DNA from: Falsiroseomonas bella
GTDB taxonomy: Bacteria; Pseudomonadota; Alphaproteobacteria; Acetobacterales; Acetobacteraceae
NCBI RefSeq assembly: GCF_003173615.1
Contig: NZ_QGNA01000001.1
Span: forward strand, 434,001 to 498,000
Reading direction: 5' to 3'
Length of the DNA: 64,000 bases
The notes under the pieces were generated by a model, which was not told the DNA's origin, searched no databases, and saw nothing but the letters and a program-made list of their open reading frames with translations. This document shows positions 17,124 to 23,846 of the stretch, piece after piece. Both the position numbers and the translations under genes were made by a program. Position 1 is the first letter of the stretch. Each line of letters opens with the position of its first letter.

Positions 17124-20360
<3,237 letters not shown>

Positions 20361-22419: not shown

Positions 22420-23778
22420 TCAGGCCGCCTTCCGCTGCTCGATCAGCCCGACGAAGCGATGGAACAGGTGGTGGCTGTCGGTCGGGCCGGGTGAGGCCTC
22501 CGGGTGGTACTGCACGGAAAAGGCCGGGTGCTTCGTGCTCGCGATGCCTTCGTTGGTGCCGTCGAACAGGCTGCGATGCGTGACCTCCACGCCGTCCGGC
22601 AGCGTCGCCTCGTCCACCGCGAAGCCGTGGTTCTGGGACGTGATCTCCACCTTTCCGGTGCGCAGATCCTTCACAGGCTGGTTGCCGCCGCGATGGCCGC
22701 GGTCGAGCTTGTAGGTCTTCGCACCCAGCGCCAGGGCGAGCAGCTGGTGGCCGAGGCAGATGCCGAAGGTCGGCACGCCGGCTTCCAGCACGCCCTTGAT
22801 CGCCGGCACGGCGTAGGCGCCGGTCGCCGCAGGGTCGCCGGGGCCGTTCGAAAGAAACACTCCGTCCGGCTTGTGGCCCAGAATCTCTTCCGCGGTGGCG
22901 GTCGCGGGCACCACCGTCACGGCGCAGCCGGCGGAGGCGAGGCAGCGCAGGATGTTGCGCTTCGCCCCGAAATCCACGGCGACGACCTTGAAGCGCGGCG
23001 CCGCCTGCGTGCCATAGCCCCGGCCGAGTTCCCAGGTCGTCTCGTCCCAGGCGTAGCTCTGGCGGGTGGAGACCTCCTTCGCGAGGTCCATGCCCTCCAG
23101 CCCCGGCCAGTCGCGCGCCTGCGCCACCAGGGCCGGGATGTCGAAGCGGCCATCGGCCGGGAAGGCCAGCACGCCGTTGGGCGCGCCGCCGTCGCGGATG
23201 CGGGCGGTGAGTGCGCGGGTGTCCACGCCGGCGATGCCCGGCACGCCATGCGACTTCAGCCAGTCGTCCAGGTGCCGCGTCGCGCGCCAGCTGGACGGCT
23301 CGGTGACGTCCTGCTTGACGATGAGGCCGCGCGCGACCGGCGTCACCGCCTCGATGTCCTCGGGGTTGGCGCCGACATTGCCGATATGGGGGAAGGTGAA
23401 GCAGATGGTCTGGCCGGCATAGGAAGGATCGGTCAGCACCTCCTGGTAGCCGGTCATGGAGGTGTTGAAGCAGATCTCGGCGACGGTGGTGCCATGCGCG
23501 CCGAAGCCGCGGCCCCAGAAGACCGACCCGTCGGCCAGGACCAGGGCGGCAGTCGCTCCTTCCGGGATGGTCGAGTCGGTCACGGCGGTCTCCGTCGGGC
23601 TCTTGCGGGGCAGGTCGTCGAGGGCGAGGCCGGTGGCGGCGATGACCGCCGGCCAGTGCTTGGCCGGGATGGCCCGGGCCTGGCGCCATTTGCGCAGCGC
23701 CTCCGTGCCGATGCCAAGCCGGGTCGCGGTGGTCTCCGCGCCGCCCAGCAGGGCGACGATATCCTCGACGGTGCGCAT
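22420..23778 (-). CDS. carA: Carbamoyl-phosphate synthase small subunit with N-terminal HTH extension
   Basis: Glutaminase subunit feeding ammonia to CarB. From residue 66 the protein is a normal CarA of 387 residues: N-terminal CPSase_sm_chain domain ([21 protein letters not shown]) and a class I glutamine amidotransferase domain with the nucleophile in GICLGHQ and a His-x-Glu pair in QYHPEASPG. Residues 1-65 are extra. They contain [20 protein letters not shown]..., then [15 protein letters not shown], a pattern like YdaS/Cro-type helix-turn-helix domains. The frame is open throughout, so ATG 23778 gives a 452-residue fusion; GTG 23583 would give the bare enzyme. Dyad sites lie in its promoter region. 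Confidence 0.93.
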
Positions 23779-23784
23779 GGCTGG

Positions 23785-23846
23785 GATATGTGGGAAGTTT
23801 TTTCCCGTGTCCAGCACGACCTGGGAATGGGAAGAAAATTCCCAGG
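23785..23846 (-). promoter_or_regulatory. carA promoter with two GGGAA-N5-TTCCC dyads
   Basis: On the minus strand TGGACA (23808-23813, five of six matches to the -35 consensus) is followed after 17 bases by CATATC (23785-23790, weak -10). The spacer holds a dyad, GGGAA at 23792-23796 and TTCCC at 23802-23806. A second dyad of the same 5+5+5 design lies at 23829-23843, and it is embedded in a longer CCTGGGAA...TTCCCAGG repeat (23820-23846). Start of transcription would fall near the carA ATG, so the message may be leaderless when the ATG at 23778 is used. Confidence 0.55.

Follow-up and report, generated by a model that had tools for sequence, protein, structure and literature searches.

The carA locus and its fused reading frame

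The window analysed here is the whole stretch of 64,000 nucleotides at positions 434,001 to 498,000 of contig NZ_QGNA01000001.1 from Falsiroseomonas bella, a member of the Acetobacteraceae, the family to which all family counts below refer. Its minus strand carries carA, encoding the amidotransferase subunit of carbamoyl-phosphate synthase (CPSase), within a frame that runs from ATG 23778-23776 to the stop at 22420 with no internal stop and translates into 452 residues. Residue 66 of this frame is GTG 23583-23581, and the translation confirms the original prediction, made from the bare sequence, that the frame is open from this GTG back to ATG 23778. The frame stays open still further upstream to TTG 24072; similarity to homologues starts only at ATG 23778. 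We propose that the additional 65-residue segment is a captured domain of the phage Cro type through which CarA represses its own gene, a prediction to which we assign a probability of about 0.78. The features that enter this proposal, all on the minus strand, are as follows.

23828..23844, minus strand: distal operator candidate TGGGAATTTTCTTCCCA, an exact palindrome; such a second site recurs in 141 of 165 promoters
23808..23813, minus strand: -35-like hexamer TGGACA (sequence; T-T/G-G at the same offset in aligned promoters)
23791..23807, minus strand: proximal operator candidate CGGGAAAAAACTTCCCA, occupying the 17-bp promoter spacer (sequence, promoter alignment)
23785..23790, minus strand: -10-like hexamer CATATC (sequence; alignment of 119 promoters)
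23611..23769, minus strand: carphisopro / Cro-like helix-turn-helix domain, residues 4-56 (NF046037, E 5.1e-17; structure model)
23551..23610, minus strand: variable linker, residues 57-76 (alignment; residues 59-68 below pLDDT 50)
23590..23593, minus strand: Shine-Dalgarno GGAG for the internal start (sequence, conservation)
23581..23583, minus strand: putative internal start GTG of a short CarA (sequence, conservation)
22420..23550, minus strand: CarA part, residues 77-452 and stop (TIGR01368, 459 bits)
17124..20360, minus strand: carB, downstream of carA (TIGR01369, 1503 bits, open reading frame list; start codon picked by eye)

Residues 77-447 belong to the CarA family TIGR01368 (459 bits, cut-off 307.35), and C341, H425 and E427, which we take to be the amidotransferase Cys-His-Glu, are invariant across 30 sequences. 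Residues 4-56 belong to the NCBIfam family NF046037, "carphisopro" (61.8 bits, cut-off 38, E 5.1e-17), a model that names the domain and gives no function. The original prediction had described the segment as a DNA-binding module of the YdaS/Cro type. Its helix-turn-helix (HTH) character stands, whereas the scores for YdaS_toxin (Pfam PF15943, 23.3 bits, E 5.5e-5) and P22_Cro (Pfam PF14549, 21.2 bits, E 2.6e-4) fall below the respective gathering scores of 30 and 30.2, so that identity as a YdaS toxin is ruled out. Throughout the fused protein, only HTH and CarA/amidotransferase domains match among the TIGR/NCBIfam and Pfam profiles.

Structure prediction, which had been suggested as a check, yields an AlphaFold model of the segment (22 sequences) with four helices at residues 4-11, 14-21, 25-34 and 39-49 and a mean predicted local distance difference test score (pLDDT) of 80.2. 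In the full-length model, residues 59-68 fall below a pLDDT of 50 and are flanked by two confidently modelled parts. The top fold matches are the Cro repressors of N15 and Xfaso 1 and, lower down, of P22, at a template modelling score of about 0.65. The segment shares predicted helices and fold with these proteins at weak significance; they differ from it in being free-standing phage proteins. Sequence matches to 3bd1 (E 0.69) and 5w8y (E 0.86) are likewise weak.

Conservation of the fusion and of a promoter palindrome

We read 240 loci, mostly from the top of the domain-score list rather than at random, and among them 179 of 181 domain open reading frames (ORFs) run in frame into CarA. The two exceptions are L191, where the frame is broken behind the linker, and L193, a contig fragment; as only these two stop short of CarA, a separate HTH gene ahead of carA is ruled out. 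The break in L191 (G126:C1) lies just after the linker and might be a sequencing error or a real change, and the linkers of L091 and L193 are lengthened by tandem repeats of about RAPEGxT(S/A). Removal of six in-frame loci failing the CarA-core pattern and eight duplicates leaves 165 non-redundant loci. Five of these fail the helix pattern, leaving 160, and four more are short, so that the CarA tree has 156 rows.

The segment is present in 34 of 35 family genomes, that of the window included, and the one miss (G033) yielded no CarA either. Counted per genome and on any protein, a carphisopro match occurs in 283 of 299 family genomes, in 278 of them above the cut-off. Among the 16 genomes without a match, 11 have no CarA at E 1e-60, three have an N-terminally incomplete CarA (two of them at the edge of a contig, the third being L298), and two, G245 and G067, hold a CarA without the domain. 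At the level of the class, 45 of 192 genomes have a match, and three of the 30 loci returned contain a CarA-like ORF, all three from the window's own family; the first reading of these loci showed ORFs of at least 15 bits (22 of 30), and the CarA check covered all 30. The ratio of non-synonymous to synonymous substitution rates (dN/dS) over 47 disjoint close pairs is 0.153 for the domain vs 0.133 for the first 150 codons of CarA, and the result is the same after dropping the domain-identity filter. By this measure, domain and enzyme part are under similar purifying selection. Homologues lacking the segment or carrying stop codons in it had been named as evidence that would speak against a fused regulator; what we find is in-frame fusion nearly throughout and purifying selection.

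Upstream of these genes lies a repeated palindrome, TGGGAA-N5-TTCCCA, discovered in the printed upstream DNA of 78 loci. With at least 9 of 12 positions matching, it occurs within 160 nt in 156 of the 165 carA promoters; shuffling of the promoters leaves 8.5 such cases on average and 16 at most, and a control segment within CarA has 1 in 165. At 10 of 12 positions, the palindrome is found in 152/165 promoters of domain-bearing CarA vs 0/59 domain-less CarA loci; at 9 of 12, seven of the 59 score, scanned over a longer stretch of 300 nt. The operator is absent at the domain-less CarA genes of the two family members mentioned above. Two palindromes are present in 141 promoters, spaced by 37-40 bp in 114 of these; in the window they are 37 bp apart. 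The near site begins 27-31 nt ahead of the ATG in 119 of 165 loci, and in those it follows a TTG at one offset (100/119) and is directly followed by tATant. Lying between these two elements, the 17-bp operator would therefore constitute the promoter spacer. A conserved palindrome would suit a dimer of the Cro type.

The sites are rare elsewhere. The window genome (5.94 Mb) has one exact site and one site with a single mismatch, both at carA; with at most one mismatch there is none outside carA, hence none at carB, and a wider regulon in this genome is ruled out at that stringency. Across 35 family genomes a hand count gives 33 exact sites in 26 genomes, of which 31 lie just upstream of the CarA domain and two away from carA (G011:C1, G029:C45). 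Twenty-three genomes from other families contain two exact sites. The distal operator candidate also lies 83 bp from the beginning (ATG 23927) of a plus-strand gene, presumably YqeY-like, and control could be shared between the two genes.

Some lineages carry CGGAA-N5-TTCCG in place of the TGGGAA-type operator, and this switch accompanies a change in the predicted recognition helix. Of the 156 rows, the eight whose residue 33, in that helix, is Ser or Ala all have the CGGAA-type operator (C-type, as opposed to G-type). Residue 33 has undergone two changes on the CarA tree, each matched by a switch of the operator in the same direction. Seven of eight S/A33 genomes, searched whole, have no TGGGAA-type site with at most one mismatch at carA.

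Two predicted translation starts

In the window, ATG 23778 has no Shine-Dalgarno (SD) sequence, and GTG 23583 is preceded by GGAG. Across the loci, with an SD defined by a threshold at or below -4 kcal/mol, the long ATG has one in 6 of the 119 cases with an abutting promoter vs 34 of the 46 others, a contrast as expected if the mRNA were leaderless in the former and had a leader in most of the latter. Judged from these sequences, the mRNA of the long form looks leaderless, and from the position of the -10 element transcription is predicted to start at, or adjoining, the A of ATG 23778. Leaderless mRNAs occur in Gluconobacter oxydans, where 62 of 1344 assigned 5' untranslated regions are at most 3 nt long (PMC5756330); carA is unnamed in the main-text excerpts of that start-site study.

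The linker holds an in-frame ATG or GTG with an SD in 118 of 165 loci, compared with 8 and 0 in the other two frames and with a mean of 23.3 and a maximum of 34 after shuffling of codon order. These internal starts coincide with the beginning of CarA in outside groups, and are therefore probably the old CarA start, retained. Both starts look selected, and the cell probably makes a short CarA in addition to the long one.

Proposed autorepression and its alternatives

From these patterns we infer binding of the CarA domain to the palindromes, repression rather than activation, leaderless initiation, and both isoforms in the cell. HTH-CarA would be translated from ATG 23778 on an mRNA probably beginning at that ATG. 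Paired HTH domains would then bind the palindrome in the promoter spacer and keep RNA polymerase off, with the upstream copy 37 bp away assisting, so that carA would be shut off. The SD-led start at GTG 23583 would give CarA without the domain, and a single mRNA would thus supply both a regulatory enzyme and a subunit with enzymatic function only. The gene carB, downstream on the same strand, may follow the control of carA. More speculatively, the assembly state of CarAB could govern the pairing of HTH domains on DNA, as the CPSase of E. coli is found essentially as a heterodimer in the presence of uridine monophosphate (UMP) and as a tetramer in that of ornithine (excerpts of PMC6245113). The earlier proposal that CarA acts as a regulator through its own DNA-binding domain thereby gains support from the in-frame fusion, the purifying selection and the conserved promoter palindrome.

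An unlikely alternative is that the palindromes serve another, separately encoded regulator and that the HTH of CarA does other work, such as oligomerisation or placement of the enzyme. The tie between domain and site comes from sequence comparison, which leaves room for such a regulator, and further carphisopro proteins exist in some genomes; the window genome has one weak match on C8 (G000:C8:198957-199136, 38.8 bits, in a 116-aa frame). However, the operator is still present in ten genomes whose sole carphisopro match is on CarA (G009, G011, G014, G016, G017, G021, G024, G025, G026 and G028), which argues against a separate carphisopro relative as the binder. It is moreover missing where CarA lacks the domain, and differs together with the recognition helix. 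Even less probable, in our estimate, is that HTH-CarA binds these sites but activates, or loops the two sites with an outcome other than simple repression. Their near-constant distance would permit cooperation, but the near site occupies the spacer between -35 and -10, from where Cro-type proteins usually repress. The idea of a leftover open frame, with the short CarA from GTG 23583 as sole product, had been offered with the original prediction, and we consider it very improbable. The missing SD at ATG 23778, the GGAG at the GTG and the conservation of internal starts would fit it, and part of it survives in that GTG 23583 falls in the conserved class of internal starts, with a short CarA probably made. 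As a full account it is ruled out by the purifying selection on the domain, the in-frame fusion, and the SD at the domain ATG in 34 of the 46 loci whose promoter does not abut it.

Several observations weigh against autorepression. The loci are mostly the highest-scoring ones, the Cro fold matches reach a best E-value of 0.032, and 24 of 165 linkers lack an ATG or GTG in frame. One locus, L114, retains the domain yet has only a poor, distant site. The window genome contains 38 two-mismatch sites vs 20 sites in total for a reversed control pattern, and more targets are therefore possible. With respect to specificity, the C-type operator also occurs in four of the 148 rows that lack S/A33, three of which have the helix end QAG[LFV]V. 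Two changes of residue 33 are too few for a significant test, and the match between helix and operator is not statistically independent evidence. Residue G35 alone fails to predict the operator (12 of 29 rows C-type, 17 G-type), ruling it out as the sole specificity residue. Finally, the relaxed C-type pattern CCGGA-N6-TTCCGG is frequent elsewhere in its genomes, and with so many background matches uniqueness of the C-type operator is not borne out.

Precedents and the parallel in Ccr

The nearest functional precedent for HTH-CarA, by analogy, would be PutA, the trifunctional proline utilization A, a metabolic enzyme that represses its own genes through an N-terminal DNA-binding domain (excerpts of PMC5293562). 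Enzyme and DNA-binding domain are likewise joined in one chain in HTH-CarA, and operator sites in its own promoter are found by sequence. PutA differs in having a ribbon-helix-helix (RHH) domain on a catabolic flavoenzyme, where HTH-CarA has a Cro-type domain on a biosynthetic amidotransferase subunit; the operator in the promoter spacer and the second, internal start also set HTH-CarA apart. To the PutA family proper, with RHH, PRODH and P5CDH domains, the protein does not belong, as its only matches are to HTH and CarA/amidotransferase domains. In E. coli, enzymes join the transcriptional control of the CPSase genes as "trigger enzymes", PyrH among them, but they do so as distinct proteins working at tandem promoters (excerpts of PMC6245113). 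Among the titles and abstract openings listed by searches of open-licence PMC papers, none concerns an HTH-bearing CarA or crotonyl-CoA carboxylase/reductase (Ccr); although carphisopro is a catalogued domain, no description of its role on CarA came up in these searches. PepA also takes part in the control of carAB in E. coli, and the CarA of that species is not known to carry a DNA-binding domain.

If the autorepression reading is true, an enzyme at the branch to arginine and pyrimidines is its own transcription factor across a large bacterial family, which would explain how these bacteria may tune carbamoyl-phosphate supply without the many factors of E. coli. The reading makes definite predictions: the precise sites, the residue that sets specificity, and a pair of isoforms.

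In the matches examined from other families, carphisopro is attached to proteins other than CarA. In another alphaproteobacterial family, Ccr carries an N-terminal, in-frame HTH of the carphisopro type (L318 and L329-L340, from G422 and relatives; L318 matches TIGR01751 at 604 bits). By domain match, 22 of the 30 genomes there have it, and all 12 fetched loci continue into the Ccr motif GEIPP. Eleven of the 12 have GTCAA-N8-20-TTGAC upstream; L339 is without the motif. Capture of Cro-type domains by enzymes thus looks like a recurring event, and the parallel suggests a general route in which a repressor domain is captured along with a private operator. A broader proposal, which we hold at somewhat less than an even chance, is that Alphaproteobacteria repeatedly placed phage Cro-type domains on enzymes such as CarA and Ccr, each with a private promoter palindrome and often with an internal start giving a repressor-free isoform; for CarA, DNA would directly sense the assembly state of CarAB, as governed by UMP and ornithine, with no transcription factor in between.

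In further alphaproteobacteria (L299-L311, L314 and L326), the domain is N-terminal on long proteins without an enzyme-family match, several of them showing matches of the coiled-coil type. One such frame, L304, also matches uroporphyrinogen-III synthase.
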